From NCBI GenBank assembly GCA_019112625.1, contig DXIW01000063.1:1-61758 (forward strand): a stretch of 61,758 nucleotides of DNA, read 5' to 3'. The notes below the pieces were generated by a model. The model ran no database searches. It saw only the letters and a list, made by a program, of their open reading frames with translations, and was not told the DNA's origin. Made by a program: the position numbers and the translations under genes. This stretch comes from Candidatus Acutalibacter stercorigallinarum (GTDB lineage Bacteria; Bacillota; Clostridia; Oscillospirales; Acutalibacteraceae). This document shows positions 19,778-48,778 of the stretch, piece after piece (the stretch's first letter is position 1; every line of letters begins with the position of its first letter).

Positions 19778-19872
19778 GCCCGGCCCTCCCCGGCTCCGCC
19801 TGGGGCGGAGCCGGCTCACCCCTTTCGGGGGGGGGAGCCGCCGCGGCGTGCCGCGGCAGGGGAGGGCCGGGC
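19778..19872. repeat. Four-arm palindromic element 1 (outer stem with three hairpins)
   Basis: A 14-bp outer stem (19778-19791 with 19859-19872) encloses three directly abutting hairpins. These are 19792-19812 (9-bp stem GGCTCCGCC), 19813-19839 (interrupted stem closed by GGCTC/GAGCC) and 19840-19857 (8-bp stem GCCGCGGC). There is no coding sequence here. The same architecture with different arm sequences recurs at 22291, 34499 and 48698. Confidence 0.85.
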
Positions 19873-19904
19873 TGCCCGCCTCCCCCCGCGGATGGGAAAA
19901 CGTG

Positions 19905-19937
19905 AAAAAGGGACCGCCAACCAGGCGGTCCCTTTTT
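19905..19937. terminator. Bidirectional terminator
   Basis: A perfect 9-bp stem GGGACCGCC/GGCGGTCCC is flanked by A5 on the left and T5 on the right. It serves the GNAT gene on the plus strand and nfnB on the minus strand. Confidence 0.88.
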
Positions 19938-19947
19938 GTGCGCGGTG

Positions 19948-21336
19948 TTATTCCCCGGAGAGGGCTTTGTGGATGGCTTGGGCCGCGGTCTTGCCGGCGC
20001 CCATGGCCAAGATCACCGTGGCGGCGCCGGTGACGGCGTCACCCCCGGCGTAGACGTGCTCCCGGCTGGTGAGGCCCGTCTCCTCGTTGACGATGATGCC
20101 GCCCCACTTCTGGGTCTCCAGGCCCTTTGTGGTGGACTTGATCAGGGGGTTGGGGGAGGTGCCGATGGCCATGATGACGCAGTCCACGTCCAGGGTGAAC
20201 TCGCTGCCGGGCTTCTCCACGGGCCGGCGGCGGCCGGAGGCGTCGGGCTCGCCCAGCTCCATCTGGATGCACTCCATGCCGGAGACGAAGCCGTTCTCGT
20301 CCCCCAGGATGCGGGTGGGGTTGTTCAGCAGGTGGAACACGATGCCCTCCTCCTGGGCGTGCTCCACCTCCTCCGCCCGGGCGGGGAGCTCCGCCATGCT
20401 GCGGCGGTAGACGATGTACACCTCTTCCGCCCCCAGGCGCTTGGCGCACCGGGCGGCGTCCATGGCCACGTTGCCGCCGCCCACCACCGCCACCTTTTTG
20501 GCGTGCTGGATGGGGGTGTCGCTGCCCTCCCGGTAGGCCTTCATCAGGTTGACCCGGGTGAGGAACTCGTTGGCGGAGTACACGCCCTTCAGGTTCTCCC
20601 CGGGGATGTTCATAAACCGGGGCAGGCCCGCGCCGGAGCCGATGAACACGGCCTCGAAGCCCTGCTCCAGCAGCTCGTCGATGGACAGCACCCGGCCGAT
20701 GACCATGTTGGTCTCCACCTTGACGCCCAGGGCCTTCAGGCCGTCGATCTCCTTCTGGACGATGGCCTTGGGCAGCCGGAACTCGGGGATGCCGTAGACC
20801 AGCACGCCGCCGGCGGTGTGCAGGGCCTCAAACACGGTGACATCGTAGCCCTTTTTGGCCAGGTCCCCGGCACAGGTGAGCCCTGCCGGGCCGGAGCCCA
20901 CCACCGCCACCTTGTGGCCGTTGGGGGCGGGCTTCTGGGGGGCACCGCAGGTGTGGGCGTTGTGCCAGTCCGCCACAAAGCGCTCCAGGCGGCCGATGGC
21001 CACTGGCTCCCCCTTGATGCCCCGGACGCACTTCTGCTCGCACTGGCTCTCCTGGGGGCACACCCGGCCGCACACCGCGGGCAGGGAGGAGGACTGGGTG
21101 ATGATCTGGTAGGCGGCCTCGAAATCGCCTGCGGCCACCTGCTGGATAAAGGCGGGGATGCGGATATTCACCGGGCAGCCGGCGACGCAGGGCATGTTTT
21201 TGCAGTTGAGGCACCGCTGGGCCTCGTCCATGGCTTGCTCCTGGGTATAGCCCAGGGCCACCTCGTCAAAGTTCTTGTTGCGCACCTCCGGGGCCTGGGA
21301 GGGCATCTCGTTCTTTTTCAAGCTCATGTTGGGCAT
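19948..21336 (-). CDS. nfnB: NfnB-type NADPH-dependent oxidoreductase (GltD/glutamate synthase small-subunit family)
   Basis: A 462-residue flavoprotein. The N-terminal iron-sulfur part has CLNCKNMPCVAGCP near residue 45 and a CGRVCPQESQCEQKC cluster. It is followed by an FAD motif VAVVGSGPAGL near residue 142 and an NADPH motif VAVVGGGNVAMDAAR near residue 285. Such proteins are often annotated as NADPH glutamate synthase. Because it directly follows an NfnA-like partner, the better reading is the large subunit of ferredoxin:NADP+ transhydrogenase, which couples NADH and reduced ferredoxin to NADPH by electron bifurcation. AAGGAGG precedes the start, 1 nt after the nfnA stop. Confidence 0.85.
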   Translation of the reverse strand: MPNMSLKKNEMPSQAPEVRNKNFDEVALGYTQEQAMDEAQRCLNCKNMPCVAGCPVNIRIPAFIQQVAAGDFEAAYQIITQSSSLPAVCGRVCPQESQCEQKCVRGIKGEPVAIGRLERFVADWHNAHTCGAPQKPAPNGHKVAVVGSGPAGLTCAGDLAKKGYDVTVFEALHTAGGVLVYGIPEFRLPKAIVQKEIDGLKALGVKVETNMVIGRVLSIDELLEQGFEAVFIGSGAGLPRFMNIPGENLKGVYSANEFLTRVNLMKAYREGSDTPIQHAKKVAVVGGGNVAMDAARCAKRLGAEEVYIVYRRSMAELPARAEEVEHAQEEGIVFHLLNNPTRILGDENGFVSGMECIQMELGEPDASGRRRPVEKPGSEFTLDVDCVIMAIGTSPNPLIKSTTKGLETQKWGGIIVNEETGLTSREHVYAGGDAVTGAATVILAMGAGKTAAQAIHKALSGE

Positions 21337-21337
21337 C

Positions 21338-22180
21338 TCACTGCACCTCCTTGTGGAACAGGTTGCAGGCCGCGTCGTAGGCGTGGCGCTCGAAGGGCCG
21401 GTACATGGTGTTGCGGGCCATGGCCTCGTCGAAGTCCACCTCAAAGCCGTCGAAGTCCGGGCCGTCCACACAGGCGAACTTGGTCTTGCCGCCCACGGTA
21501 AGGCGGCAGCCGCCGCACATGCCTGTGCCGTCGATCATAATAGGGTTCATGCTCACCACGGTCTTGATGTTGTGCTGTTTGGTGAGCTGGGTGACGAATT
21601 TCATCATCACCAGGGGGCCGATGGCGATGACCTCGTCGTACTGCTCCCCGGCGTCAATAAGCCGCTCTAAGGCGTTGGTGACCAGGCCCTTCTCCCCGTA
21701 GGAGCCGTCGTCGGTCATGACCACCAGCTTGTCGCTGGCGGCTTTGAACTCCTCCTCCAGGATCACCAGGTCCTTGCTGCGGAACCCCACGATGGCGTGG
21801 ACCTCCGCTCCCAGCTGGTGCAGCTTTTTGGCGATGGGGTAGGCGATGGCGCAGCCCACGCCGCCGCCCACCACGGCCACTTTCTTCAGGCCCTCCACCT
21901 CGGAGGGGCGGCCCAGGGGGCCGACGAAGTCGTGGAGGCTGTCGCCCGCCTCCAGGTGGTTGAGCAGCTCGGTGGTGGCGCCCACGATCTGGAAGATGAT
22001 GGTGACGGTGCCCTGCTCCCGGTCGAAGTCCGCGATGGTGAGGGGGATGCGCTCCCCGTCCTCGTGGACCCGGAGGATGATGAACTGGCCGGGCTCCGCC
22101 TTTCTGGCGATGTGGGGAGCGTCGATGACCATCCGGGTGACGGTGGGGTTGAGAGGCTCCTTTTTCAATATGAGATACAT
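21338..22180 (-). CDS. nfnA: NfnA-type ferredoxin-NADP reductase subunit
   Basis: A 280-residue FAD and NAD-binding reductase of the dihydroorotate dehydrogenase electron-transfer type. An FAD-binding barrel (about 1-95) comes first. The NAD-binding domain begins VAVVGGGVGCAIAYPIAKKL near residue 101, and the C-terminal [2Fe-2S] site lies in GMCGGCRLTVGG with a further C. The ATG at 22180 was preferred over 22186 because AGGAG lies 9 nt upstream instead of 3. It forms an operon with nfnB and is the NADH-side subunit by family knowledge. Confidence 0.85.
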   Translation of the reverse strand: MYLILKKEPLNPTVTRMVIDAPHIARKAEPGQFIILRVHEDGERIPLTIADFDREQGTVTIIFQIVGATTELLNHLEAGDSLHDFVGPLGRPSEVEGLKKVAVVGGGVGCAIAYPIAKKLHQLGAEVHAIVGFRSKDLVILEEEFKAASDKLVVMTDDGSYGEKGLVTNALERLIDAGEQYDEVIAIGPLVMMKFVTQLTKQHNIKTVVSMNPIMIDGTGMCGGCRLTVGGKTKFACVDGPDFDGFEVDFDEAMARNTMYRPFERHAYDAACNLFHKEVQ

Positions 22181-22233
22181 AGACATTCGCTCCTTTGCGG
22201 CGAAAGTGGGATCTTTTTCGCGTCGTCCTGTCT

Positions 22234-22262
22234 ATTATAGCAATCCTTGCGCCAGAAAGCAA
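22234..22262 (-). promoter_or_regulatory. SigA-type promoter for nfnA-nfnB
   Basis: On the minus strand: TTGCTT (22257-22262), a 17-bp spacer, and the extended -10 TGCTATAAT (-10 at 22234-22239). It lies about 50 bp upstream of nfnA. Confidence 0.7.
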
Positions 22263-22290
22263 CGGGGAAATCTTATCCTACCAGGCATGC

Positions 22291-22404
22291 GGCCGCCCTC
22301 CTGCCCCGGCCCGGGGGCCGGGGCAGGGCAAGGGCCCAGGGGGGCAGGCCGAGCCTGCCCCCCCTGGGCCCTTGGATTTTTCCCGAGGGAAAAATCGGGC
22401 GGCC
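22291..22404. repeat. Four-arm palindromic element 2
   Basis: An outer stem GGCCGCCC/GGGCGGCC (22291-22298 with 22397-22404) encloses three hairpins in direct contact. Arm 1 is about 22299-22328. Arm 2 is 22329-22374, a 21-bp stem with one bulge and a CGA loop. Arm 3 is 22375-22396, a 10-bp stem GATTTTTCCC with a 2-nt GA turn. It lies 13 bp past the spoIIE stop and may stabilise or end that transcript. Confidence 0.85.
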
Positions 22405-22416
22405 ACTGCTGCGGCC

Positions 22417-24771
22417 CTATACCAGCACCAGCACCAGGGCGGTCACGTCGTCCTCATGGCCGTCGCTGCGGCGCTTTTTGGCCTCGTCGGTAATGCGCTG
22501 GGCAAAGGCGTTGGGGTTCTCCCCCTCGTCCCAGTCCGCCACCAGGTCCGCCAGCCACTCGTGGCCCGCGGCCACCACCCCATCGGACACCAGCACCACC
22601 ACGTCGCCGGGGCCCAGGTCCCGCTGGCAGCTGGCGAACTCCACCCCCGGGAGGATGCCCAGGGGCACGCTGGAGGCCTCCAGCACCTCGGTGCGGCGGC
22701 CCCGGCGCAGGATGGTACAGGCAGCCCCCGCCTTGCGGAACTGGGCCTCCCCGGTGAACAGGTCGATGCAGGCCAGGTCCAGGGTGGCCAGGGACTCGTC
22801 CCCCGACTTGGCCATAAGGGCGGCGTTGATGGTCTGCAGCATACTGTCGAAGCCGATGCCTGCCTTCAGCAGGCTCTCCGCCATGGCGGAGGTCATGGCC
22901 CCGTCCACCGCGGCCCGGCCCCCGGTGCCCATGCCGTCGCTGAGCACGGCGATGAGCCTGCCGCAGCCGTCGGCGAACACGCTGGCGCTGTCCCCGCAGA
23001 AGGTGCCGTTCCCCGCGCTGCTCTGGGAGAAGCCCCGGCCCACCTCCAGGGCGGGGCGCTGGCACATCTGGATGCGGCAGCGGTCCTGGGAGACGCTGAC
23101 GCAGGGGGGCGAGAACATCCTGCCGCAGGCCGCGGAGACCTCCCGGGTGAAGGTGCCCCGGTTCAGGCGCTTCTGGCGCTCCCGCTCAATCTCCGCTTCC
23201 ATGGTCATGCGGCCGAATCGGTCGATGCGGCAGCACACCTCTAAGGGGGTGATGCCGTTGTCCCGGAGCACGTCCGCCACCCGCTGGGCGGCCTCCTCGT
23301 CAAACTGCTGGTACAGGGAGAACTCCCCGGCCATCTCGTCCAAAATGCCGGCGGTGGTCTTGAAGTGCTCCTCCACCACCTCCCGGATCTGGGCGGCCCG
23401 GAGCTCGGCGGCCTCCTTCATCAGGTAGCGGTTGTAATTCTTGTTGAGCTCGTCCCGCATCTCCCCAGCCCTGCCGCAGCGCTCTACAAAGGCCTTGGTG
23501 AAGTCCCCGGTCTCCACCTTCCCCTTCGCCTTGAGGGGGCCGGCCAGCTGGGAGAAGTTTTCCAAAGTCTCCGCCTTGTGCTTCCGCCAGCAGGCAGCGC
23601 TCATGCCGCAGCCGGCGCAGATGGCCTCCGCGGAGCGGTCGTACACCCCCTGGAGGCTGGGGGCGCACAGGGCGCTGAGCTTCTGGGAGATCTCCTCCAC
23701 CGAGGCGTGGACATTTGTGAGGGCTTGGGCGGCGTATTTCAGCCGCATGACGATGTTCCCCCGCAGGGCACCGCCGCTGAGGGAGTCCCGCCGCAGGCCG
23801 AAGGCCTCGGTGAGCCAGCGGCTTTTGGGCAGCAGCATGTACGCCACGGTGGCCGCCGCCACCTCGATGGCGCCGGTGACCAGCCGTGTGTCCCCCGAGC
23901 CCACCTGGAGGGAGGCCACCCCGTGGGACACGATAAAGGCCACCGCTGCCGCCGCCTTGCCCATGGGGGCGAACACCCCGGCCATGAGCCCGCCCAGGCC
24001 GTAGGCCCCGGAGAGGTAGGAGAGCCCCGCGGTGGACAGCCCCTGGACCACCCCGGCGGTGACCCCTGCCACCGCGCCGCCGCTGATACCCCCGGCCCTG
24101 GCGCAGGTGATGACCAAGAGCACCATGAGTATCCGGCCCAGGGACACGCCGGAGAGGCTCACCTGGGAGAAGGCCAGCACCAGGATGGCCACTGTCACAG
24201 TGAGGGCGGCCACGTCACCTCCCTCTAGGGGCGCCTGGAGCAGGGTGCGGCCGGACTTCCGATCCGGGCCCAGGAACAGCCCCGCCGTGCGGGTGAGGAA
24301 ATAGGCGCACCCCGCCCCCAAAAAGGATTCCGCCAGGTACAGGGCCGCTGTGTAGGACATGGAGCCGTTGAGGAACACCATGGTCATACCCGTGAGGAAT
24401 AGGGGCAAAAACGCCACCGCCGGGGCGTAGAGGGGGTGGGTATTCACCCCGCGTAGCTCGGAGAGGGACCACCGGATGGCCGCCACTGCGATAAGGGCCG
24501 CCTCGTAACGGATGGGCACGTAGACCGGGGAGGGGAACAGGTACCCCAAAAACGCCCCCAGCACCGCAGCCCACAGCCCGCCCCGGGGGGCTGCCGCCGC
24601 CACCGCAATCCCAAAGGGGGCGTATCGGCCAAATACCAATCCTCTGGCGCACAACAGCCCTGTGAGAAAGCTGGCCCCTGCCACCAGGGCCTTGCGGGCA
24701 TAGGTCGTGTGCAGCGCTTCCCCCGCTTGCTGCAAAAATCGACGAACTCTGGAACCTTCCACCAAAAACAC
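22417..24771 (-). CDS. spoIIE: Stage II sporulation protein E (PP2C phosphatase)
   Basis: A 784-residue protein. An N-terminal region of about ten membrane segments (about 30-330) precedes a regulatory linker and a C-terminal PP2C-type serine phosphatase domain (about 590-784) with DGMGTGGRAAVDGAM and VLVSDGVVAAG. SpoIIE dephosphorylates SpoIIAA and so activates SigF in the forespore; it also localises to the polar septum. The start is taken as GTG at 24771. TTG 24765 or GTG 24762 are alternatives, since AGAAGG at 24774-24779 is close. The upstream region has a -10 and possible Spo0A boxes. Confidence 0.93.
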   Translation of the reverse strand: MFLVEGSRVRRFLQQAGEALHTTYARKALVAGASFLTGLLCARGLVFGRYAPFGIAVAAAAPRGGLWAAVLGAFLGYLFPSPVYVPIRYEAALIAVAAIRWSLSELRGVNTHPLYAPAVAFLPLFLTGMTMVFLNGSMSYTAALYLAESFLGAGCAYFLTRTAGLFLGPDRKSGRTLLQAPLEGGDVAALTVTVAILVLAFSQVSLSGVSLGRILMVLLVITCARAGGISGGAVAGVTAGVVQGLSTAGLSYLSGAYGLGGLMAGVFAPMGKAAAAVAFIVSHGVASLQVGSGDTRLVTGAIEVAAATVAYMLLPKSRWLTEAFGLRRDSLSGGALRGNIVMRLKYAAQALTNVHASVEEISQKLSALCAPSLQGVYDRSAEAICAGCGMSAACWRKHKAETLENFSQLAGPLKAKGKVETGDFTKAFVERCGRAGEMRDELNKNYNRYLMKEAAELRAAQIREVVEEHFKTTAGILDEMAGEFSLYQQFDEEAAQRVADVLRDNGITPLEVCCRIDRFGRMTMEAEIERERQKRLNRGTFTREVSAACGRMFSPPCVSVSQDRCRIQMCQRPALEVGRGFSQSSAGNGTFCGDSASVFADGCGRLIAVLSDGMGTGGRAAVDGAMTSAMAESLLKAGIGFDSMLQTINAALMAKSGDESLATLDLACIDLFTGEAQFRKAGAACTILRRGRRTEVLEASSVPLGILPGVEFASCQRDLGPGDVVVLVSDGVVAAGHEWLADLVADWDEGENPNAFAQRITDEAKKRRSDGHEDDVTALVLVLV

Positions 24772-24818
24772 CGCCTTCTGTCAAATTATGGGAAACCTAT
24801 CGGGAGGCTCGTTCCCTC

Positions 24819-24874
24819 ATTATAGGGAAGGTGCGGCGCTTTTTCTGTCGCTTGCAAGGTGAGATTTCCTGTCG
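24819..24874 (-). promoter_or_regulatory. Candidate spoIIE promoter with possible Spo0A boxes
   Basis: A minus-strand TATAAT (24819-24824) lies about 50 bp before spoIIE and lacks a good -35 at 17 bp. TGTCG-type half boxes occur at 24846-24850 and 24870-24874, and a better Spo0A-like TGTCAAA at 24779-24785. In Bacillus spoIIE uses a SigA promoter activated by Spo0A~P. This is suggestive only. The remaining 24875-24985 shows nothing else clear. Confidence 0.35.
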
Positions 24875-24988
24875 TGTTATTCGGGTTTCCCCGGCTTTTC
24901 CGGCTTTGGGAGGGCTTCGGCCCAGCTCCTGCCGGAATAAAGTTATGTAAATTTAATTATGGTAATTAAGGTCCCGCCCAAATTGGGT

Positions 24989-25017
24989 TTGACTTTTTTC
25001 CCCGGGAGGCATATAAT
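24989..25017 (+). promoter_or_regulatory. SigA-type promoter of the T-box transcript
   Basis: TTGACT (24989-24994), a 17-bp spacer and a perfect TATAAT (25012-25017), just ahead of the T-box leader. Confidence 0.85.
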
Positions 25018-25029
25018 AGACGAAAAGAA

Positions 25030-25277
25030 TGAAAACCGAAGAACGGGAGAAGTACCGGGGGAGCCTTTCCTCACAGCGAGCCGCGGCAGGTGGGAGCGCG
25101 GCAGGAAGACCACTTGGGAATGGACCCGGGAGGGCGTGCCGGAACAGGGGAGACCCCCAGTATGGCCGACGTGGTCCCGCGTTAAGGGAGAGAGTCGGGT
25201 CGGGCCCATGCCCGGCCAAGTTGGGTGGTACCGCAGGCCTGTGTTGTCCTGTCCCATGGTTGGGGCGGGATTTTTTT
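25030..25277 (+). promoter_or_regulatory. T-box riboswitch, tryptophan-type specifier
   Basis: A 5' leader with the conserved T-box sequence TGGGTGGTACCGC (25222-25234). It is followed by a terminator: stem CCTGTCCC (25248-25255) with GGGGCGGG (25262-25269) including two G-U pairs, then T7. Upstream, stem I sequences AGCGAGC and GGTGGGAG are recognisable. The specifier region GGGAATGGACCC places TGG (Trp) at 25121-25123. Uncharged tRNA-Trp should pair with both sites and favour read-through into the aminotransferase and trpS. The trpS gene downstream agrees with a Trp specifier. Confidence 0.88.
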
Positions 25278-25314
25278 ATTTTCCAAACCCATTACGAAAA
25301 AGGAGCTGTGCCCT

Positions 25315-26508
25315 ATGGAATACCAGTTTTCAGAACGTGTGAAAAGCCTGAAACCTTCCGCCATTCGGGAGATTTTGAAAAACTCCTCCGACCCCAGCGT
25401 CATCCCCCTGTCCGCGGGCAACCCCGCCCCCGACGCCTTCCCCTACGACGCGGTGCGGCAGATCAGCCAGGACCTGCTGCAGAACACCCCCATCGACGCT
25501 TTGCAGTACGGTGTCACCGAGGGGTACGCCCCCCTGCGCCAGCACCTGCTGGGCTATATGCAGAAGAAGCACCACGTGGGCTCGGAAAATGACGACATCC
25601 TCATCACCAGCGGGGCCCAGCAGGTCATGGACCTGCTGACCAAGACTTTGCTCAACGAGGGGGACACCGTGCTGTGCGAGGCCCCCAGCTTCATCGGCTC
25701 CCTCAACACCTTCCGGTCCTACCGGGCCAAGCTGGTGGGCATCCCCATGGAGGAGGACGGCATCGACACCCAGAAGCTGGAAGAGGCCCTGAACCGTGAG
25801 AAAAATGTAAAGTACCTGTACACCATCCCCAACTTCCAGAACCCCTCCGGCATCACCATGAGCCTGGAGAAGCGGAAGAAAGTCTACGAGCTGTGCCGGG
25901 ACCACAACGTCATCGTGCTGGAGGACAACCCCTACGGCGACCTGCGGTTCGCCGGGGAGGACGTGCCCTCCATCAAGTCCCTGGACACCGAGGGCGTGGT
26001 GGTCTACGCCGGCAGCTTCTCCAAGGTGATCTCCCCCGGGATGCGGGTGGGCTACGCCATCGGGCCCAAGGCGGTGCTGCAGAAGATGGTGGTGTGCAAG
26101 CAGGGGGAGGACGTCCACTCCAACATGTGGGCCCAGATCATCTGCCACCGCATTATGACCGAGACCGACTACGAGGCCCATCTGGAGCGGCTGCGCACCA
26201 TCTACCGCCGGAAGAGCGGTATCCTGCTGGAGGCCATGGAGAAGTACTTCAAGCCCCTGGGCATCACCTGGAGCCAGTTTGAGGGCGGCCTGTTCGCCTG
26301 GTGTACCCTGCCCCAGGGCGTGGACATGCTGGACTTTGTCAAAAAGGCCACGGAGAATAAGGTCTGCGTGGTGCCGGGCACGGCCTTCCTCACCGACGAG
26401 AGCGAGCCCTGCCGGTCCTTCCGCATCAACTTCTCCACCCCCACCGACCAGCAGCTGGCCGACGGCATCCGCCTGCTGGCCCAGACCTATGAGGAAATGA
26501 CGAGATAA
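25315..26508 (+). CDS. PLP-dependent aminotransferase (class I/II), Trp T-box controlled
   Basis: A 397-residue fold-type I aminotransferase. The lysine that binds pyridoxal phosphate is in AGSFSKVISPGMRVGY near residue 235. The conserved N/P/Y residues lie in TIPNFQNPSGITMS (near 180) and LEDNPYGDLRF (near 203), and the terminal arginine in CRSFRINFS. The sequence is close to the aromatic/2-aminoadipate aminotransferase group. AAAGGAGC precedes ATG 25315. It lies between a Trp T-box and trpS, 12 bp apart, so an aromatic amino acid, perhaps tryptophan, is the likely substrate; this is inferred from context. Confidence 0.85.
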   Translation: MEYQFSERVKSLKPSAIREILKNSSDPSVIPLSAGNPAPDAFPYDAVRQISQDLLQNTPIDALQYGVTEGYAPLRQHLLGYMQKKHHVGSENDDILITSGAQQVMDLLTKTLLNEGDTVLCEAPSFIGSLNTFRSYRAKLVGIPMEEDGIDTQKLEEALNREKNVKYLYTIPNFQNPSGITMSLEKRKKVYELCRDHNVIVLEDNPYGDLRFAGEDVPSIKSLDTEGVVVYAGSFSKVISPGMRVGYAIGPKAVLQKMVVCKQGEDVHSNMWAQIICHRIMTETDYEAHLERLRTIYRRKSGILLEAMEKYFKPLGITWSQFEGGLFAWCTLPQGVDMLDFVKKATENKVCVVPGTAFLTDESEPCRSFRINFSTPTDQQLADGIRLLAQTYEEMTR

Positions 26509-26520
26509 GGAGAGCTTACT

Positions 26521-27522: not shown

Positions 27523-27525
27523 CAC

Positions 27526-34498: not shown

Positions 34499-34593
34499 CC
34501 CCCGCCCTCTCCGCCCCCGCCTGCGGCGGGGGCGCCCTGGCGCCCACGGGCGCCAGGGCAGGCGCGGCGCAGCCGCGCCGGAGAGGGCGGGGG
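34499..34593. repeat. Four-arm palindromic element 3
   Basis: A 14-bp outer stem CCCCCGCCCTCTCC (34499-34512 with 34580-34593) encloses three contiguous hairpins. Arm 1 is 34513-34533 (8 bp), arm 2 is 34534-34559 (12 bp, 2-nt turn) and arm 3 is 34561-34579 (8 bp, GCA loop). A single A separates arms 2 and 3. The rest of the 328-bp gap to paaK holds a promoter and nothing else recognised. Confidence 0.88.
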
Positions 34594-40741: not shown

Positions 40742-40785
40742 TCCCCCGCACCCCCTCCTACGAGGCGTAAATTTTTATCTTGCCG

Positions 40786-40835: not shown

Positions 40836-41006
40836 CTTGGCTCGTGCGCACATCCCCCCAAGGGCACGCTTGACCCGGGTGTACAGTAAAAATGACCCGT
40901 TTTTCTCTGTTGGAAACCCCTTTGTAGTAAGCCCAGGCTGAGCGGGTCCTTCCGGGGACGAATAAGCCAAAGTTTCGTGCCAGCGAGACTTGATTCGCCC
41001 CTCTCA

Positions 41007-41075
41007 GTCACGGCTTCGCCGTGACAGCGTCTCGCCTGCCTCCCTCCTTGAGGGAGGTGGCCCGGCAAAGCCGGG
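41007..41075. repeat. REP-like cluster of three hairpins
   Basis: Three hairpins follow each other: GTCACGGC-TTC-GCCGTGAC (41007-41025), CCTCCCTC-CTT-GAGGGAGG (41039-41057) and CCCGGC-AAA-GCCGGG (41061-41075). The first, with its CCCTCTCAGTCACGG lead-in, looks like a repetitive extragenic element common in Oscillospiraceae genomes, from memory. From here to cotJA nothing else is clear except a weak SigE-like CATACCCT at 41214. Confidence 0.65.
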
Positions 41076-41270
41076 TCGAAGGGAGTCTAAATGGGGATTG
41101 CCGGCGGGGGAGGGAAGAGGAGAGGAACCCCCAGCCACCTTTGGCCCCGTCTCACCCGCCTCCGCCCGCGCGGTCACGCGCCGCGCCCCCTGTCACGCCC
41201 TGCCCTGGCCGCGCATACCCTGTAGCAAGGGGACAAGGTCCCCGAAATCTACAGAAAAGAGGGAATTCAC

Positions 41271-41722: not shown

Positions 41723-42322
41723 ATGTTTGTCTACGAAAAGCGATTGCAGTACCCCATCCGCATCAAGAACCCCAACCCCAAGCTGGCGAAGCTCATCATC
41801 AGCCAGTACGGCGGCCCCCACGGGGAGATCGGCGCGTCCCTGCGGTACCTCAGCCAGCGGTACGCCATGCCCACCCCCGAGCTGAAAGCCATCCTCACCG
41901 ACATCGGCACCGAGGAGCTCTCCCACCTGGAGATGGTGGGCACCATCGTGTACCAGCTCACCCGCAACCTCACCCCCCAGCAGATCCAGGAGGCGGGCTT
42001 CGACACCTACTTTCTGGACCACACCACCGGAGTGTACCCGGTGGCGGCCTCGGGGATGCCCTTCAGCGCCCAGACCTTCTCCGTCACCGGCGACACCATC
42101 GCCGACCTCCAGGAGGACATGAGTGCCGAGCAGAAAGCCCGGATGACCTACGACAATATCCTCCGCTTCGCCGATGACCCGGACGTGCGGGATCCCATCA
42201 AGTTCCTGCGGGAGCGGGAGATCGTCCACTTCCAGCGCTTCGGCGAGGGGCTGCGTATCCTCACCGACAAGCTGGACAGCAAGAATTTCTACGCCTTCAA
42301 CCCCTCCTTCGACAAGCCCTGA
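41723..42322 (+). CDS. cotJC: Spore coat protein CotJC (manganese catalase family)
   Basis: A 199-residue protein of the dimanganese catalase fold. Metal ligands are visible in GGPHGEIGASLRYLSQRY (near 33), IGTEELSHLEMVGTIVYQL (near 62) and the late helix REREIVHFQRFGEGL (near 172). It is likely to remove peroxide at the spore surface, which is inferred from the family. The length is normal. A strong terminator follows the stop. Confidence 0.93.
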   Translation: MFVYEKRLQYPIRIKNPNPKLAKLIISQYGGPHGEIGASLRYLSQRYAMPTPELKAILTDIGTEELSHLEMVGTIVYQLTRNLTPQQIQEAGFDTYFLDHTTGVYPVAASGMPFSAQTFSVTGDTIADLQEDMSAEQKARMTYDNILRFADDPDVRDPIKFLREREIVHFQRFGEGLRILTDKLDSKNFYAFNPSFDKP

Positions 42323-42338
42323 CAGCCGGGGAGGCGAC

Positions 42339-42374
42339 GCCCGCCTGGGGAGACCCGGGCGGGCATCTTTTTTT
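42339..42374 (+). terminator. Terminator after cotJC
   Basis: An 11-bp stem (42339-42349 with 42354-42364, one T-G pair) with a short loop, then ATC and T7. Confidence 0.85.
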
Positions 42375-42395
42375 GAAAAAACAGGGGAGACCCCC

Positions 42396-42443
42396 TTGAC
42401 AAACTCGGGGCAGCTGCCTATACTATAAATGAACAATCGTTCA
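42396..42443 (+). promoter_or_regulatory. Promoter and ArsR/SmtB-type operator of the metal operon
   Basis: TTGACA (42396-42401), a 17-bp spacer and TATACT (42419-42424). Directly downstream lies the inverted repeat TGAACAATCGTTCA (42430-42443), which matches the core of ArsR/SmtB operators (TGAAC...GTTCA). Binding there would block transcription, so the operon is probably autorepressed and released by metal. Confidence 0.85.
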
Positions 42444-42462
42444 AATGAAAGGATGTTGTAAT

Positions 42463-42825
42463 ATGCCGGAACGGAAAACAGCGCCGGGCTGCGATTTCCT
42501 CTTTGTCCACCAGGACATTGTGGACCGGGTGAACAGCGCCATGCCCGGGGAGGAGGAGCTCTTCGACCTGGCGGAGCTGTTCAAAGTGTTCGGGGATTCC
42601 ACCCGCATCAAAATTTTGTACCTGCTCTTCGAGGCGGAGATGTGCGTGTGCGACATCGCCCAGCTGCTGGGTATGACCCAGTCGGCCATCTCCCACCAGC
42701 TGCAGGTGCTGAAAAAGAGCAAGCTGGTGAAATACCGCCGGGAGGGCAAGACCGTGTTCTACTCGTTAGCCGACGACCATGTGCGCGCCATTCTGGGCCA
42801 GGGCATGGACCACGTCACCGAATAA
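42463..42825 (+). CDS. ArsR/SmtB-family metal-responsive repressor
   Basis: A 120-residue winged-helix repressor. ELFKVFGDSTRIKILYLLFEAEMCVCDIA, then MTQSAISHQLQVLKKSKLV and YRREGKTVFYSL (about residues 28-105) form the family core. The CVCD segment holds the cysteines of the alpha-3 metal site used by CadC and ArsR types. With the operator upstream and a P-type ATPase downstream, it probably represses this operon until Cd, Pb or Zn binds. AAAGGATG precedes the ATG. Confidence 0.9.
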   Translation: MPERKTAPGCDFLFVHQDIVDRVNSAMPGEEELFDLAELFKVFGDSTRIKILYLLFEAEMCVCDIAQLLGMTQSAISHQLQVLKKSKLVKYRREGKTVFYSLADDHVRAILGQGMDHVTE

Positions 42826-42853
42826 ACCAAAACGATTCTAGGAGGCACTCACC

Positions 42854-43075
42854 ATGAAAAAGACCTACCAGCTCACCGACCTGGACTGCGCCAACTGCGC
42901 CGCCAAAATGGAGACCGCCATCAAGAAGATCGACGGGGTGTCCGACGCCTCTGTCAGCTTCCTCACCCAGAAGATGACCGTGGATGCCGACGACAGCCGG
43001 TTCGACGAGATCATGAAGCAGGTAGTGAAGGCCTGCAAAAAGGTGGAGCCCGACTGCGTCATCAACCTGAAATAA
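42854..43075 (+). CDS. Heavy-metal-associated (HMA) domain protein
   Basis: A 73-residue single-domain metallochaperone with the metal-binding CANC in LTDLDCANCAAKMETAI near residue 12. It matches the N-terminal HMA domain of ZntA/CadA ATPases. Here it is a separate gene 41 bp before the ATPase, which itself lacks the domain, so the domain seems split off. It would deliver Zn, Cd or Pb to the pump. Confidence 0.9.
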   Translation: MKKTYQLTDLDCANCAAKMETAIKKIDGVSDASVSFLTQKMTVDADDSRFDEIMKQVVKACKKVEPDCVINLK

Positions 43076-43116
43076 ATAGGCGCTGCGCAAAATCAAAGCT
43101 GAAGGACTTGAGAGGT

Positions 43117-44997
43117 ATGACTAGAAAACAGAAGAAAATGCTGGCCCGCATCGTCATCAGCGCGGTATTGCTGGTAGCCGCCGTGCTCATCCCCTACAGC
43201 GGCACCTGGCGGTTTTTGCTGTTCTTCCCCGCCTATTTCACCATCGGCTGGGACGTGTTGTGGAAGGCCGCCCGGAACATCGCCCATGGCCAGGTATTCG
43301 ACGAGAACTTCCTCATGGCCCTGGCCACGGTGGGGGCCTTCTGCACCGGCTTTTTCGGGGAGGGGGAATACCCCGAGGCCGTGTTCGTCATGCTGTTCTA
43401 CCAGGTGGGGGAGCTGTTCCAGAGCTACGCCGTGGGCAAGTCCCGCAAGTCCATCGCCAGCCTGATGGACATCCGCCCGGACTACGCCAACGTGGAGCGT
43501 GAGGGCCAGCTGGTCCAGGTGGACCCGGAACAGGTGGCCATCGGGGACGTGATTACCGTCAAGGCCGGGGAGAAGGTGCCCCTGGACGGGGTGGTGCTGG
43601 AGGGCAGCTCCTCCCTGAACACCGCCGCCCTCACCGGGGAGTCCCTGCCCCGGGAGGTGGGCCCCGGGGACAGCGTCATCAGCGGCTGCGTAAACCAGAG
43701 CGGCCTGCTGCGAGTGCAGGTGACCAAGGCCTTCGGGGAGTCCACCGTGGCGAAGATTCTGGACCTGGTGGAGAACTCCAGCAGCAAGAAGGCCAAGGCG
43801 GAGAACTTCATCACCAAATTTGCCCGGTACTACACCCCAATCGTGGTCATCGCCGCCGTGGCCCTGGCGGTGCTGCCGCCCCTGTTCTTTGGCCAAAGCT
43901 GGGCGGACTGGCTCCAGCGGGCCCTGACCTTCCTGGTGGTCTCCTGCCCCTGCGCCCTGGTGATCTCCGTGCCCCTCAGCTTCTTCGGGGGCATCGGCGG
44001 GGCCTCCCGGCAGGGCATCCTGGTGAAGGGCGGCAACTATTTGGAGGCCCTGGCCGCCACGGAAGTGGTGGTGTTCGATAAGACCGGCACCCTCACCCAG
44101 GGGGTGTTCCACGTCACCGCCATCCACCCCGACCAGTACAGCCAGGCCCAGCTGCTAGAGCTGGCCGCCCTGGCGGAGAGCTACTCCGACCACCCCATCT
44201 CCCGCTCTTTGAAGGAGGCCTACGGCAAAGAGCTGGACACCTCCCGGGTGGGTGAGGTGGAGGAGCTCTCCGGCCATGGGGTGCGGGCCCGGGTGGACGG
44301 GAAACTGGTGTGCGCCGGCAACGATAAACTGATGGAGGAGATCGGCGCGGGGTGGCGCCCCTGCCACCACGTGGGCACCACGGTGCACGTGGCGGTGGAC
44401 GGGGTCTATGCCGGGCATATCGTCATCTCCGACCGGGTGAAGCCCGACGCCAAAGCCGCTGTCGCCGCCCTGAAGGCCCAGGGGGTAAAAAAGACCGTCA
44501 TGCTCACCGGGGACACCAAAGCCGTGGGGGAGAGCGTGGCCAAGGAGCTGGGCCTGGACCAGGCCTACACCCAGCTGCTCCCCGGGGATAAGGTGGAGAA
44601 GGTGGAGGCCCTGCTCCTGGAAAAATCCCCCAAAGGGAAGCTGGCCTTCGTGGGGGACGGCATCAACGACGCGCCGGTGCTCTCCCGGGCGGACATCGGC
44701 ATCGCCATGGGGGCCCTGGGCTCAGATGCCGCCATCGAGGCTGCGGACATCGTCCTCATGGACGACAAGCCCTCCAAGATCGCCAAGGCCATGGAGATCT
44801 CCAAGCGCACCCTGGGCATCGTGCGGCAGAACATCGTGTTCGCCCTGGCTGTCAAGGTGCTGGTGCTGCTCCTCAGCGCCTTCGGCCTCTCCAATATGTG
44901 GCAGGCGGTGTTTGCCGACGTGGGCGTCATGGTCCTGGCCATCCTGAACGCCTCCCGGGCCCTGAAGGCCGGCCGGGAGGAGACCGCAGCGCTGTAA
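43117..44997 (+). CDS. Heavy-metal-translocating P-type ATPase (ZntA/CadA-like)
   Basis: A 626-residue P1B-type ATPase. The transmembrane metal site is VVSCPCALVIS near residue 274, the phosphorylated aspartate in VVFDKTGTLTQG near residue 319, and the hinge in GDGINDAPVLSRADIGIAMG near residue 513. SDHPISRS is the HP locus. It has no N-terminal HMA domain. The CPC motif and the ArsR partner suggest export of Zn, Cd or Pb. ATG 43117 follows AGAGGT; a TTG at 43108 is also in frame. A bidirectional terminator follows. Confidence 0.93.
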   Translation: MTRKQKKMLARIVISAVLLVAAVLIPYSGTWRFLLFFPAYFTIGWDVLWKAARNIAHGQVFDENFLMALATVGAFCTGFFGEGEYPEAVFVMLFYQVGELFQSYAVGKSRKSIASLMDIRPDYANVEREGQLVQVDPEQVAIGDVITVKAGEKVPLDGVVLEGSSSLNTAALTGESLPREVGPGDSVISGCVNQSGLLRVQVTKAFGESTVAKILDLVENSSSKKAKAENFITKFARYYTPIVVIAAVALAVLPPLFFGQSWADWLQRALTFLVVSCPCALVISVPLSFFGGIGGASRQGILVKGGNYLEALAATEVVVFDKTGTLTQGVFHVTAIHPDQYSQAQLLELAALAESYSDHPISRSLKEAYGKELDTSRVGEVEELSGHGVRARVDGKLVCAGNDKLMEEIGAGWRPCHHVGTTVHVAVDGVYAGHIVISDRVKPDAKAAVAALKAQGVKKTVMLTGDTKAVGESVAKELGLDQAYTQLLPGDKVEKVEALLLEKSPKGKLAFVGDGINDAPVLSRADIGIAMGALGSDAAIEAADIVLMDDKPSKIAKAMEISKRTLGIVRQNIVFALAVKVLVLLLSAFGLSNMWQAVFADVGVMVLAILNASRALKAGREETAAL

Positions 44998-45000
44998 GCG

Positions 45001-45034
45001 AAAAAAGGACCGCCGTACACACGGCGGTCCTTTT
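45001..45034. terminator. Bidirectional terminator
   Basis: A perfect 10-bp stem GGACCGCCGT/ACGGCGGTCC with loop ACAC, flanked by A6 and T4. It serves the ATPase gene and the convergent DUF6054 gene. Confidence 0.88.
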
Positions 45035-45041
45035 GCTGCGC

Positions 45042-45374
45042 TCACAGGTCGTTGATGGCCCCGGCGATGGTCTCCAGAAAGGCCTCCTCCCCAAAGGTGT
45101 TCAGCTTGAAGAAGGTGGCCTGGCTGCCCCCGGAGGTGATGGCGGTGAGAAAGTAGCTGCCATTGGCCCCCGCCAGGGTGAGGCTCATGCTCACCCGGTT
45201 GCCGCCGGTCCAGCTGTACCGCTCGTAGACCCGCACCGCGCAGCGGAAGTCCCCTTGGCTGTAGTCGCTGCCGTCCTCGTAGCTGGCGGACATGCTGCCC
45301 CCCAGCACCGCCTGGTGCAGGTGTTCCAGAATGGCGTCAAAGTCGCCTGTGACCTGTTTGACGTATTTTGCCAT
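45042..45374 (-). CDS. DUF6054-family protein (110 aa)
   Basis: A soluble 110-residue protein. The pattern YVKQVTGDFDAILEHLHQAVL, then MSASYEDGSDY and CAVRVYERYSWTGGNRVSM followed by FLTAITSGGSQATFFKLNT is that of DUF6054, recalled from annotation of related Clostridia. No catalytic residues or membrane segments are evident. GGAAAGGAG precedes the ATG. It lies 18 bp behind the APH-like kinase gene and is probably co-transcribed with it. Function unknown. Confidence 0.75.
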   Translation of the reverse strand: MAKYVKQVTGDFDAILEHLHQAVLGGSMSASYEDGSDYSQGDFRCAVRVYERYSWTGGNRVSMSLTLAGANGSYFLTAITSGGSQATFFKLNTFGEEAFLETIAGAINDL

Positions 45375-45392
45375 AGCGTGCTCCTTTCCCCG

Positions 45393-46304
45393 TCAACCCC
45401 GGTTTGCCAGGGCCTGTTCCAAAAGCCGCCGCACCTCCTCCAGGGAGGAAAAGGGCGGCAGGCCTGCCTCCTTGGCTGTCTCCCGGAGGATGTCCGGCCC
45501 GAAGTCGTGGACGGCGAGGCCGTCCAGAACCCCCTGGACAAAGGCCTCCCGGTCCTCCCCGGCCCAGAGCTTCAGCAGCAGGGGGTCCCGCTGGAACAGC
45601 CCCAGGGCCAGGGGCGGCAGCTCGTACCAGGCGGGGGCCAGGCAGGCGTCCGCCCAGTCGATGAGCACAGGCCGGCCTTTTTCGTCCACCAGCACGTTCT
45701 CCCCGGTCAGGTCCCCGTGGACCAGCACAGGCTCCGCCAGGTCCACCGCCCGGGCCCGGGCCTGCAGCTCCTCTGCCAGGGCAGGGGCCACGTGGGCCAG
45801 CCGGGGGTTTTCCCTGCCCCGCCGCCGCAGATCCACCGGGGGGATGAGCCCCGGGGCGGGCCGGTTGACCAGCGCCAGCAGCTCCTTGAGCTGCCGGGCG
45901 AAAAACTCCTTTTCCCGGGGGGAGGCAGTGGGCAGCCAGTCTCCTGCCTCTCGCCCGGGGCAAAACTGGGTGACCAGGTAGTAAAAATCGTACTTGTCCC
46001 GCACCAGCCCCTGGGCCAGGAGCTTCGGCACCGGCACCCCCAGCTTTGTGAGATGGCCGCACACCGCCGCCTCATTCCGGAAATCCGGTTCCGGGTCCAG
46101 GCCGGACTCCCGGGGGAAGAACACCTTCACCACCAGGTCCCCGCAGCGGAACACCCCGTTGGTGCCGGGGGTCAGGTTTTGCAGGGGCGCAAAGGGCAGC
46201 CCCTCCCGGCGGAAAATTTCCCGCACCAGGGGCGTAAACGCGGGGATGGACTGGAACACCCGCCCCCAGTCGTCCCAGTTTTGGATGGTCTCGGAGAACA
46301 GCAT
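45393..46304 (-). CDS. Aminoglycoside phosphotransferase-like (APH) kinase
   Basis: A 303-residue protein with the protein-kinase-like fold. The ATP-binding lysine is in DLVVKVFFPRE near residue 57. The catalytic loop is VLVHGDLTGENVLVDEKGRPVLIDWADA near residue 194, with the usual H-D...N and the metal-binding D. The family phosphorylates many small molecules, and nothing here shows drug resistance. It has its own promoter and is followed by the DUF6054 gene in the same direction. Confidence 0.85.
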   Translation of the reverse strand: MLFSETIQNWDDWGRVFQSIPAFTPLVREIFRREGLPFAPLQNLTPGTNGVFRCGDLVVKVFFPRESGLDPEPDFRNEAAVCGHLTKLGVPVPKLLAQGLVRDKYDFYYLVTQFCPGREAGDWLPTASPREKEFFARQLKELLALVNRPAPGLIPPVDLRRRGRENPRLAHVAPALAEELQARARAVDLAEPVLVHGDLTGENVLVDEKGRPVLIDWADACLAPAWYELPPLALGLFQRDPLLLKLWAGEDREAFVQGVLDGLAVHDFGPDILRETAKEAGLPPFSSLEEVRRLLEQALANRG

Positions 46305-46325
46305 GGCGGCCCCTCCTTTTTGTCC

Positions 46326-46354
46326 ATCATAGCACAGCCCGGGCTATCTGGCAA
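46326..46354 (-). promoter_or_regulatory. SigA-type promoter for the APH-DUF6054 unit
   Basis: On the minus strand: TTGCCA (46349-46354), a 17-bp spacer and an extended -10 TGCTATGAT (-10 at 46326-46331). Confidence 0.7.
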
Positions 46355-46355
46355 C

Positions 46356-46383
46356 AAAAACCTCCCCCGCACCGCGGGGGAGG
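46356..46383 (-). terminator. Terminator of the GntR-ABC operon
   Basis: A perfect 10-bp stem CCTCCCCCGC/GCGGGGGAGG around a 3-nt loop, followed on the minus strand by T5. It closes the unit just downstream of the zinc-ribbon gene. Confidence 0.88.
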
Positions 46384-46389
46384 TCCTGA

Positions 46390-46611
46390 TCAGCCAAAGG
46401 CCTGTTTGATCTTCTCCAGCTCCTCCCGGGTCTCCACCCAGTTCTCCACGTAGCCGCAGGAGCAGCACACGTAGCGGATCACCGGGATCTTCCCGAACAG
46501 GGTGGCGGCGCTGGTGTAGATGTTGTTCCCGCTGGCGTAGCGGCCCGGGTGGTCCGGCACCCGGACGATGTGGCTGCCGCCGCACTTGGGGCATCGGTTG
46601 GTATATCGCAT
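46390..46611 (-). CDS. Zinc-ribbon-like small protein
   Basis: A 73-residue protein with two CxxC pairs: CPKCG near residue 7 and CCSCG near residue 49, separated by a 40-residue beta-rich stretch (IVRVPDHPGRYASGNN...). This is a zinc-ribbon arrangement. GGAG lies 7 nt before the ATG, inside the last codons of the permease gene, so it is translated with that gene. It is the last gene of the GntR-ABC unit. Function unknown. Confidence 0.75.
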   Translation of the reverse strand: MRYTNRCPKCGGSHIVRVPDHPGRYASGNNIYTSAATLFGKIPVIRYVCCSCGYVENWVETREELEKIKQAFG

Positions 46612-46612
46612 A

Positions 46613-47251
46613 TCAAAACTCCATTTTCCGATAGAAATGCAGGGTGAGGAAGAACGAGCCCACATACAGGGCCACCACCGCCAGGGCGGCGAAGGGCGCC
46701 AGGGCCCCGGCGTTCTGCTCCACAAAGTCGAAGGCGGAGCGGATGGCCTCGTCGCTCCAAACGCCCAGGCGGTTGAGGCCGAAGAGCAGCGCCATGGGCA
46801 CGAAGATCATCCCCATAAACACCGCCACCACGAAGTTCTGCCCCAGCTTCAGGCACACGGGGATCATCACCGCCTGGAACAACAGGGTGAGGCTCAGGAA
46901 CACCGGGTAGCTCCAGGCGGGCATGGGGGAGCCCAGCCCCAGATTGTCGGCGATGACGATGAGATTCATCACCGCGGTGCTCACCAGCCCGGCGATGTAT
47001 TTGGACAGCACCACCTTCCCCCGGCTGATGGGGGAGGCGCAGATGAATTTGTTCCACCCGTTGGCCTTGTCGTAGTGGATGGAGTAGCAGGGCACCATGC
47101 AGCCCAGGGAGAGCAGCACCCCGACAGCGGGCCCCAGCATCTCCTCCTGACCGATGACCAGGTTGAATACACAGAAGACTAAGACGAACCCAAGGGTCAT
47201 TAGCAGCTCTTTCTTCGCGGAATACACGTCCTTATACAGTAAACCCAGCAT
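46613..47251 (-). CDS. ABC-2 type transporter permease
   Basis: A 212-residue membrane protein with six hydrophobic segments (about 16-34, 38-57, 85-103, 112-131, 139-158 and 180-205). A basic segment GWNKFICASPISRGKVVLSKYIAG after the second helix is typical of ABC-2 permeases. It works with the ATPase encoded just upstream (the stop and start codons abut). The transport substrate is unknown; similar GntR-linked systems respond to envelope-active peptides, which is only a possibility here. Confidence 0.85.
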   Translation of the reverse strand: MLGLLYKDVYSAKKELLMTLGFVLVFCVFNLVIGQEEMLGPAVGVLLSLGCMVPCYSIHYDKANGWNKFICASPISRGKVVLSKYIAGLVSTAVMNLIVIADNLGLGSPMPAWSYPVFLSLTLLFQAVMIPVCLKLGQNFVVAVFMGMIFVPMALLFGLNRLGVWSDEAIRSAFDFVEQNAGALAPFAALAVVALYVGSFFLTLHFYRKMEF

Positions 47252-48112
47252 TTAGATCTTCTCCTTTCCCGGCTTCTTCCCCTTGATGGAGTAGAGCATC
47301 AGGTCGTCCAAGGTGGCGCTCTCCACCGCCAGGTCCCCGGGCATCTCATAGCGCTTTACCAGGGCGGTCACCCCGAAGTCGCTGTCCCGGTAGCCCACCA
47401 CCGTGGCGGGAGCCAACTCCGCCAGCTGTTCCCTGCTGCCGTGGAACAGGCCGTAGGTCTCCAGCAGGGTGTCCTTCTCCCCGGAGAGGAAGATTTTCCC
47501 CTGGTGGATGAAGGTGATGTAGTCGGCAATCTTCTCCAGGTCCCCGGTGATGTGGGAGGACAAGAACACGCTGTGGCCCTCGTCCTGGATGTAGTCGTAG
47601 AGGATGTCTAAGATGTCGTCCCGCACGATGGGGTCCAGCCCGGAGGTGGCCTCGTCCAGCAGCAAGAGCTTCGCCCCGTGGGACAGGGCCGCCGCCAGGG
47701 ACAGCTTCATCACCATGCCCCGGGAGTAGGCCTTGATCTTTTTGCCCGATTCGATCTGGAACCGCTCCAGGTAAGCCCGGTAGGCAGCCCCGTCCCAGTG
47801 CTTGTAGATCTTGGACAGGACCTTCCCCAGCTGGAGGGCGTTCATCTCCGGGGGGAAGAAGCCGGAATCCAGCACCAGCCCCACCTCTTCCATCACAGAG
47901 CGGTCGGCGGCGGGGTCCCGCCCCAGCAGGCGGATGTCACCGCTGTCCTTTTCGATGAGCCCCAGCATGGCCTTGATGGTGGTGCTCTTCCCGGCACCGT
48001 TCTCCCCGATAAAGCCCATGATGCACCCCATGGGCAGGGTGAGGCTGACCCCGTCCAGGGTAAATGATTCATATTCCTTGCGCAAGTTCCGCAATTCAAT
48101 GGCGTTGGTCAT
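47252..48112 (-). CDS. ABC transporter ATP-binding protein
   Basis: A 286-residue ATPase. Walker A GENGAGKSTT is near residue 37, the signature is degenerate (the SRGMVMKLSLAAAL stretch near residue 131) and Walker B is LLLLDEATSGLDP near residue 152, with the H-loop in FLSSHIT. A C-terminal extension (about 215-286) follows the core. It is the partner of the ABC-2 permease downstream and lies directly behind the GntR regulator gene. Confidence 0.93.
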   Translation of the reverse strand: MTNAIELRNLRKEYESFTLDGVSLTLPMGCIMGFIGENGAGKSTTIKAMLGLIEKDSGDIRLLGRDPAADRSVMEEVGLVLDSGFFPPEMNALQLGKVLSKIYKHWDGAAYRAYLERFQIESGKKIKAYSRGMVMKLSLAAALSHGAKLLLLDEATSGLDPIVRDDILDILYDYIQDEGHSVFLSSHITGDLEKIADYITFIHQGKIFLSGEKDTLLETYGLFHGSREQLAELAPATVVGYRDSDFGVTALVKRYEMPGDLAVESATLDDLMLYSIKGKKPGKEKI

Positions 48113-48128
48113 AACTGATGTTCCTTTC

Positions 48129-48503
48129 CTAAGGTTCCTCCCAGAGCAGCTCCAAAGCGGAGAGCAGTTCCTCCTTGGTCATGCCGCAGAGGGCGGCGGC
48201 TTTTGCCGCCTCGGCCAGGTGGTGCTCCACCTGGCGCAGCTGCTCCTCCCGCAGAAATTCGGCGTTCTTCCCCGCCACAAAGCTCCCCTTGCCGGTGAGG
48301 GTGTACAAAAACCCCTCCCGCTCCAGCTCCTCGTAGGCGCGCTTGGTGGTGATGACGCTGATGCGCAGCTCCTTGGCCAGCAGCCGCATGGAGGGGAGAG
48401 GGTCCCCTTCTTTCAGCTGCCCGGCGAGGATCAATGCTTTGATCTGCTCGGTGATCTGTTCGTAGATGGGCTTCCCGTTCTGGTTGCTGATGCTGATGTT
48501 CAC
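48129..48503 (-). CDS. GntR-family regulator (YtrA subfamily)
   Basis: A 124-residue protein. The winged helix (about 10-75) has [20 protein letters not shown], then [28 protein letters not shown]. There is only a short helical C-terminal tail (about 85-124), the mark of the YtrA subfamily. The GTG start at 48503 follows AAAGGAAG. It heads the unit with the ABC ATPase, permease and zinc-ribbon genes. A perfect AT-rich palindrome over its own promoter is the probable operator. Confidence 0.9.
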
Positions 48504-48581
48504 GGCATCTACTTCCTTTCCACCGCGCCTGCCCAGGGGGCCGTTCCCGGATGAGGGCGGCAATATTCCTTCGCGAACGAA

Positions 48582-48624
48582 ATATTGTATATATACAGTA
48601 TATACAATATCTACGGTTTGTCAA
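48582..48624 (-). promoter_or_regulatory. Promoter and 12-5-12 operator of the GntR-ABC operon
   Basis: On the minus strand, TTGACA (48619-48624), a 16-bp spacer and TATACT (48597-48602). The -10 lies inside a perfect inverted repeat ATATTGTATATA-N5-TATATACAATAT (48582-48610). Such GTATA/TATAC palindromes are typical for YtrA-type repressors. The AT-rich block is striking against the GC-rich background. Confidence 0.85.
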
Positions 48625-48697
48625 GGGGGCGGCAAAAAGTTTTTTTGGCGGCCCGGGACGGCTTTGGGCGGGGCTTCTGGGGAGCGAGGGCCAGCGA

Positions 48698-48778
48698 GAA
48701 ACTCCCCGACTTGCGCAAAGCGCAAGTCAGCCCCTCGAAAAGAGGGGCCAGCCGCCAAAGGCGGCTGGGGGGAGTTTC
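48698..48778. repeat. Four-arm palindromic element 4
   Basis: An outer 10-bp stem GAAACTCCCC/GGGGAGTTTC (48698-48707 with 48769-48778) encloses three hairpins. Arm 1 is GACTTGCGC-AAA-GCGCAAGTC (48708-48728), arm 2 is GCCCCTC with a 5-nt loop (48730-48748) and arm 3 is CAGCCGCC-AAA-GGCGGCTG (48749-48767... with G60). Only single bases separate the arms. A further AGCG/CGCT pair extends the outer stem after one mismatch. It lies in the divergent gntR-ispDF region; the rest of that 352-bp gap holds the two promoters. Confidence 0.88.

Follow-up and report, generated by a model that had tools for sequence, protein, structure and literature searches.

Dispersed palindromic elements with a conserved four-way junction at gene ends in part of the genus Acutalibacter

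Introduction

Why would separate gaps between genes carry DNA that folds alike although much of its sequence differs? The question is raised by a contig of Candidatus Acutalibacter stercorigallinarum (genome G000), of which the whole stretch analysed, 61,758 nt, is hereafter called the window. A preliminary description of the window had claimed four intergenic elements (E1 to E4) of one fold, each an outer stem closing three abutting hairpins. Here, the fold, abundance, distribution and variation of these elements were analysed computationally.

Results and Discussion

The window elements fold into four-way junctions

The minimum-energy folds of E1 to E4 consisted of an outer stem and three abutting hairpins with RNA and DNA parameters alike, confirming the claimed layout at all four sites. 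The z values against shuffles were −5.8, −8.6, −9.8 and −10.0 with RNA parameters and −6.7, −8.3, −8.1 and −10.8 with DNA parameters for E1 to E4, respectively. E1 (19778..19872) has an outer stem of 14 bp and arms of 9, 10 (one mismatch) and 7 bp, and lies in a convergent gap with the two gene ends 43 and ~75 nt away. E2 (22291..22404) has an outer stem of 8 bp (GGCCGCCC/GGGCGGCC) and arms of ~12, 20 (one bulge) and 9 bp; it is located in a tandem gap, 12 nt past the stop codon of a 784-aa gene on the − strand whose product we take to resemble SpoIIE. E3 (34499..34593), with an outer stem of 14 bp, arms of 9, 11 and 8 bp and one linker base, also occupies a tandem gap, 16 nt past the stop codon of a presumably pyridoxine-kinase-like gene. 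E4 occupies a divergent gap and has an outer stem of 15 pairs with one A-C mismatch, arms of 9, 7 and 8 bp and two linker bases; it had been placed at 48698–48778, and its outer stem extends to 48693..48783. The junctions had been called perfect, which is too strong for E1, E2 and E4 with their mismatch, bulge and A-C mismatch, respectively.

A Watson–Crick descriptor recovered E1, E3 and E4 at scores of 36–41, with the rest of the window at or below 20.5, and missed E2 because of the one-base bulge in the middle arm; the strictest descriptor setting gave one match in total across eight shuffled windows. The earlier statement that the arms differ completely in sequence holds only in part. The motif GCCCTC(T/C)CC is present in the outer stems of both E1 and E3, and a covariance model (R1), built from 10 elements with E3 included and E1, E2 and E4 left out, finds E1 (E value, 5e-5) and E4 (E value, 2e-4). 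E2 was not found by R1. Sequence relatedness among the window elements is thus partial.

The architecture is in excess over shuffled sequence

The G000 sample comprised the window and 20 stretches picked around BLAST matches to E3, and its 25 descriptor matches scoring at least 26 in 431 kb of 2.19 Mb (~20%) therefore represent a density biased upward. Counting against shuffled sequence, as the preliminary description had proposed, gave no match in five local dinucleotide shuffles of G000 or of any other sampled genome. Twenty-two of the 25 matches are typical and three are doubtful: L016:15795 is a four-hairpin repeat, and ordinary runs of hairpins appear to underlie L024:15609 and L022:17974. 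With a stricter descriptor, G000 yielded 22 three-hairpin forms versus 1 in one shuffle and 16 two-hairpin forms versus 3, 4 of the 16 lying inside three-hairpin elements and 5 in a separate T-shaped repeat. No stem enclosing four or five hairpins in direct contact (linkers of at most 2 nt) was found in 10 sampled genomes.

The elements contain ~80% G+C, a composition in which GC-rich intergenic DNA might fold by chance, but the shuffled sequence contradicts this. Moreover, covariation in alignment A2 (10 sequences, chosen and structured by hand) exceeded that of all 500 shuffles and of every slid register; RNAalifold on a first alignment, A1, had recovered only part of the structure, and the A2 structure was written by hand instead. 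Chance folding was rejected as exceedingly improbable.

Elements occur in part of the genus and form sequence subfamilies

The best match of the gene before E3 was found in Candidatus Acutalibacter pullistercoris, on a contig matching genome G006 of the genus to which the window belongs, and this genus is accordingly assigned to GTDB Acutalibacter. The descriptor found 17 matches in 634 kb of G006 and 16 in 142 kb of G023 (20 after two stretches were added), with none in five shuffles of either genome. Elements are rare in G022 (2 in 113 kb, one of them doubtful). No match scoring at least 26 was found in G024 (111 kb; one weak match, score 20, under the stricter descriptor) or in G027 (149 kb), in which ~3 and ~4, respectively, would be expected at the density of G006. 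Judged by nucleotide identity only, G000 seems slightly nearer to G024 and G027 than to G023. No elements were found in samples of 8–40 kb, too small to exclude them, from G004, G005, G013, G016, G018, G019, G021, G025, G026, G028, G030, G037 and G045 and from six named relatives. One AT-rich match was seen in G003, and one typical element in G181, which belongs to another genus of the family (sample with 44% G+C). Model R1 matched at least 4 of 29 genus genomes and at least 2 of 200 family genomes, namely G000 and one of another genus. In these comparisons, which use partly sampled assemblies with stretches often picked around matches, the elements are present in part of the genus Acutalibacter. 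Separately, G017 carries two adjacent AT-rich three-hairpin structures (L128:6370–6484 and 6658–6773) which are alike in sequence and unlike the GC-rich family.

The elements are 74–136 bp long (median, 90). Among 73 elements, 51 match another over at least 60 nt and 16 match at 85% or more; L016:15795, L205:261 and probably L154:1 represent a related four-hairpin repeat yet were kept in this count and/or in that of 60 used below. The species own partly separate sequence subfamilies. The outer-stem word CCCTCTC is found in 7 of the 23 listed G000 elements, the G006 subfamily carries GGGGGGCCTCCC, and the G023 subfamily combines outer stem CCGTCTCGC with middle arm CTTTTGC, a further arm being highly variable.

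A one-sided G-rich tail of ~15 nt, approximately GGGAGGCGGGTGGG, was observed beside the outer stem in G023 at L110:2684, L149:4567, L144:18429, L144:19226, L228:4024 and L228:4576, giving these copies a polarity.

Copies are dispersed and some sites are filled in one species

Near-identical copies lie in flanks that do not align, and their similarity ends at or shortly beyond the outer stem. Three G006 copies (L141:14278, L141:16231 and L168:1285) are 88–93% identical, and G000 L017:13142 is 92% identical to G006 L160:8151 with non-aligning flanks. G023 copies with the CCGTCTCGC stem and the CTTTTGC arm are located at different sites, with the likeness stopping at the outer stem or past the one-sided tail. 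What recurs at unrelated sites is in essence the cloverleaf alone, joined in G023 by that tail.

Orthologous sites were compared for 41 elements (25 of them listed), L024:15609 and L022:17974 having been dropped beforehand. Ten sites have both flanks colinear between G000 and G006, of which 4 are shared, 2 are filled in G000 only and 4 in G006 only; this tally leaves out L016:15795, the four-hairpin repeat, which is also shared, and does not count L013:7720/L182:3355 or L028:19024, whose right flanks are not colinear. The G000-only site L016:14264 faces a different stretch of ~720 nt in G006. No clear target-site duplication was seen, the filled and empty sites being too diverged to show one, and BLAST of the E4 region against plasmids gave no match. 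Together, near-identical copies at unrelated sites and sites filled in one species indicate, and thereby support, mobility of the elements.

The fold is kept at shared sites where the letters changed

At the E3 site, G000 and G006 share the outer stem CCGCCCTCTCCG while all three arms differ; all of these arms pair, without a mismatch in G006, and most of the ~190 nt downstream is near-identical between the species. At the E2 site, the outer stem is likewise kept, and G006 has the AT-rich arm on the opposite side and the interior in reverse order. The four-stem layout is kept with changed letters at the L016:15681 site, with one mismatch in the G006 middle arm, and at the L018:17052 site the outer stem and first arm are nearly unchanged and the other two arms changed. 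At four shared sites, the elements have thus stayed paired in one layout despite many changed stem letters. The architecture without shared sequence proposed in the preliminary description is seen between species and, in part, at these four orthologous sites, but the window elements are to some extent alike in sequence.

Slow single compensations would seem to explain such changes less well than would templated correction, inversion or the replacement of whole blocks. In yeast, the arms of repeats are reported to become alike, and spacers to be inverted, through template switching (PMC8604942). The elements might be mutational relics, that is, old palindromic insertions whose arms are matched solely through template-switch correction, without selection or function. 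Besides the inverted order of the E2 interior, two G006 copies agree with this reading in differing by an inverted middle-arm loop, TGC versus GCA. A relic by itself, however, leaves unexplained why three abutting hairpins, not four or five, recur with different letters in several species, and does not account for dispersed copies; we regard this reading as rather doubtful. Selection on structure and templated arm correction are both live explanations for the upkeep of pairing.

Elements lie mostly downstream of genes and pairing appears to be kept at the DNA level

With our own gene caller, 60 elements were assigned to tandem gaps (31), convergent gaps (13), divergent gaps (7), genes (7, at least one of which is apparently a gene-caller error) and edges (2). 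Gap lengths alone predict ~61, 16 and 23% tandem, convergent and divergent placements; 61, 25 and 14% of 51 were observed. The elements are mostly directly downstream of genes, and 27 of the 31 tandem ones are nearer to the upstream stop codon than to the next start (median, 37 nt).

The stems of the 60 elements contain 2315 Watson–Crick pairs of 2365 (97.9%, a value bounded by detection since the descriptor permits at most one mismatch per stem), 10 G-T, 15 A-C and 25 other oppositions; with tandem genes defining the coding strand, 5 G-T and 5 A-C are counted. Matches summed over three genomes numbered 56 with Watson–Crick pairs alone and 110 with G-T allowed, versus 113 and 118 with G-A and C-T as controls. 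The wobble-tolerant descriptor was therefore rejected, its summed gain not exceeding that of control mismatch classes. In G000 alone, 45 G-T-tolerant matches (shuffle, 8) were obtained versus 40 and 37 for the controls (shuffles, 13 and 14), and a small RNA component in this genome is possible.

Loops of 3 nt make up 112 of 180; a C-G pair closes 99 of these triloops, and 58 of the triloops read GNA or the complementary TNC. GNA-type loops give DNA hairpins high stability. Within elements, loops do not all have one polarity (15 same, 5 mixed), and this fits folding of one strand only weakly. The lack of a clear wobble excess together with C-G-closed GNA/TNC triloops favors upkeep of pairing probably at the DNA level, as judged from the sequences.

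Three roles had been considered in the preliminary description: a cruciform protein target, a transcript-end stabilizer and a non-autonomous mobile palindrome. The last is directly supported by the dispersed near-identical copies and one-species sites, and the first is possible. As a transcript-end RNA element, the junction would block 3′ exonucleases or help to end transcription in the mRNA. The location just past stop codons, the strand bias of GNA-type loops in tandem gaps (22 on the coding strand versus 11) and the slightly raised wobble-tolerant count of G000 are compatible with an RNA role, but no overall wobble excess exists, 7 of the 60 elements are in divergent gaps, and a T tract adjoins 8 of 73 elements versus 11% of random places. 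Rfam gave no match at threshold at the elements in the stretches scanned: none in the window and, with a permissive threshold, only sub-threshold matches at elements of L013 and L016. An RNA function of this kind is accordingly judged unlikely. Intrinsic terminators were rejected, with a T-tract rate not above that of random places, as was any known structured RNA family at threshold in the scanned stretches. The sole Rfam match at threshold in the window is a T-box leader at 25030–25259 (+).

Alternatively, the elements may be host DNA-structure elements, cruciform or junction sites selected at gene ends that would, for example, take up supercoils or serve as the binding site of a nucleoid or topoisomerase protein, functions also proposed for BIMEs. 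The fold kept at four orthologous sites, the apparently DNA-level pairing and the gene-end location argue for such a role. On the other side, only 4 of the 10 colinear sites are shared by the two closest genomes compared, and the element seems dispensable because none was found in 111 kb of G024 and 149 kb of G027. The host role, which is compatible with the mobile reading preferred below, is a possibility that we hold only tentatively.

The family resembles REPs and differs from the known systems compared

REPs, as reported (PMC3733652), are palindromic, intergenic sequences of many copies, mainly between unidirectional and convergent genes near gene 3′ ends, forming species-specific families within the GTAG and CGTC superfamilies. 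The Acutalibacter elements, too, are palindromes scattered between genes and gathered at gene 3′ ends, as in REPs, REPINs and BIMEs, and their distribution over gap types is similar to that described for REPs. REPs, however, measure 20–40 bp and bear GTAG or CGTC as an unpaired tag, whereas the Acutalibacter units are ~90 bp and enclose three hairpins in an outer stem. Such tag words are rare within 6 nt of the element ends in G000 and G006, with GTAG/CTAC seen twice in G006 and GACG twice in G000; in G023, CGTC was seen 19 times within 6 nt of the ends, inside the paired outer stem. No mobilizing gene was identified. The RAYT-type profile PF01797 (Y1_Tnp) matched 9 of 29 genus genomes and none of the element-bearing G000, G006, G022 and G023, whose assemblies are 81–97% complete so that a gene may have been missed. 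RAYT mobilization was rejected on this result. The family behaves as REP type but departs from REPs in the features tested, tag and RAYT. The open-licence literature searched listed no account of elements like these from the genus or the family, including as a REP/BIME class, the case envisaged in the preliminary description.

MITEs are short, geneless, dispersed near-identical copies with terminal inverted sequence and a target-site duplication on insertion. The Acutalibacter elements share the former properties and differ in an architecture of three hairpins conserved more than sequence; no target-site duplication was recognized at the sites compared, which are too diverged to show one. Mobile hairpin elements of mitochondrial genomes, which include a double-hairpin type, are also hairpin-based and presumed selfish but are organelle elements, and we know of none with a four-way junction. 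Integron attC sites are read largely by the fold of one DNA strand and vary in sequence, as proposed here for the Acutalibacter elements, but consist of one imperfect hairpin with extrahelical bases rather than three arms. The conserved four-way junction is the distinguishing feature of the family.

Taken together, we consider it probable that the elements are REP-like, non-autonomous, dispersed palindromic DNA in which the conserved property is the four-way junction, with pairing kept by templated arm correction, by selection on the fold or by both. This explanation and its rivals overlap in the confidence assigned to them and are not exclusive. The mobilizing enzyme, the strand used and any host function are what we infer in the following scheme. 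A single strand, exposed as lagging-strand template or in transcription-opened DNA, would fold into the junction, with its loops as tight triloops. The element would be copied by a recombinase acting in trans, other than a Y1/RAYT transposase, that recognizes the fold more than the letters. In place, template switching between arms during replication would restore pairing, making arms match and at times flipping loops or the interior, and this upkeep is possibly helped by selection at gene ends for a site that forms a junction or absorbs supercoils.

More speculatively, the elements may represent a class of mobile DNA recognized by fold rather than letters, in which the three arms change rapidly, in situ and in blocks, while remaining near-perfectly paired, and each species places its own sequences on one architecture. 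Elements conserved mainly in architecture are easily missed by repeat finders, which seek sequence. If the junction is what is recognized, they would provide a natural DNA series in which the shape stays constant and the letters vary. Such a series could help to find the reading enzyme and to tell templated arm correction apart from selection on DNA structure.

Other repeats in the sampled stretches

The four-hairpin repeat (family I) is a second, sequence-conserved repeat, found at L016:15795–15891 and in L043–L062, with a degenerate copy at window 40999–41085. It has an outer stem CCCCTC.., four hairpins (GTC..GAC, CTCCCC..) and a short central spacer, and often contains other repeats. The T-shaped repeat, also conserved in sequence, has an outer stem CAAGAA.CGC.. 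over two hairpins, with copies at L015:3813–3871, L022:1035–1094, L025:9853–9911, L026:7876–7936 and L028:12664–12725. A hairpin module, ACGTGCC..GGCACGT, recurs at window 59433–59508 and in L044, L046 and L025, and in the latter three it adjoins GTCTCGCCTGCCGGCTCGGTCGGC.
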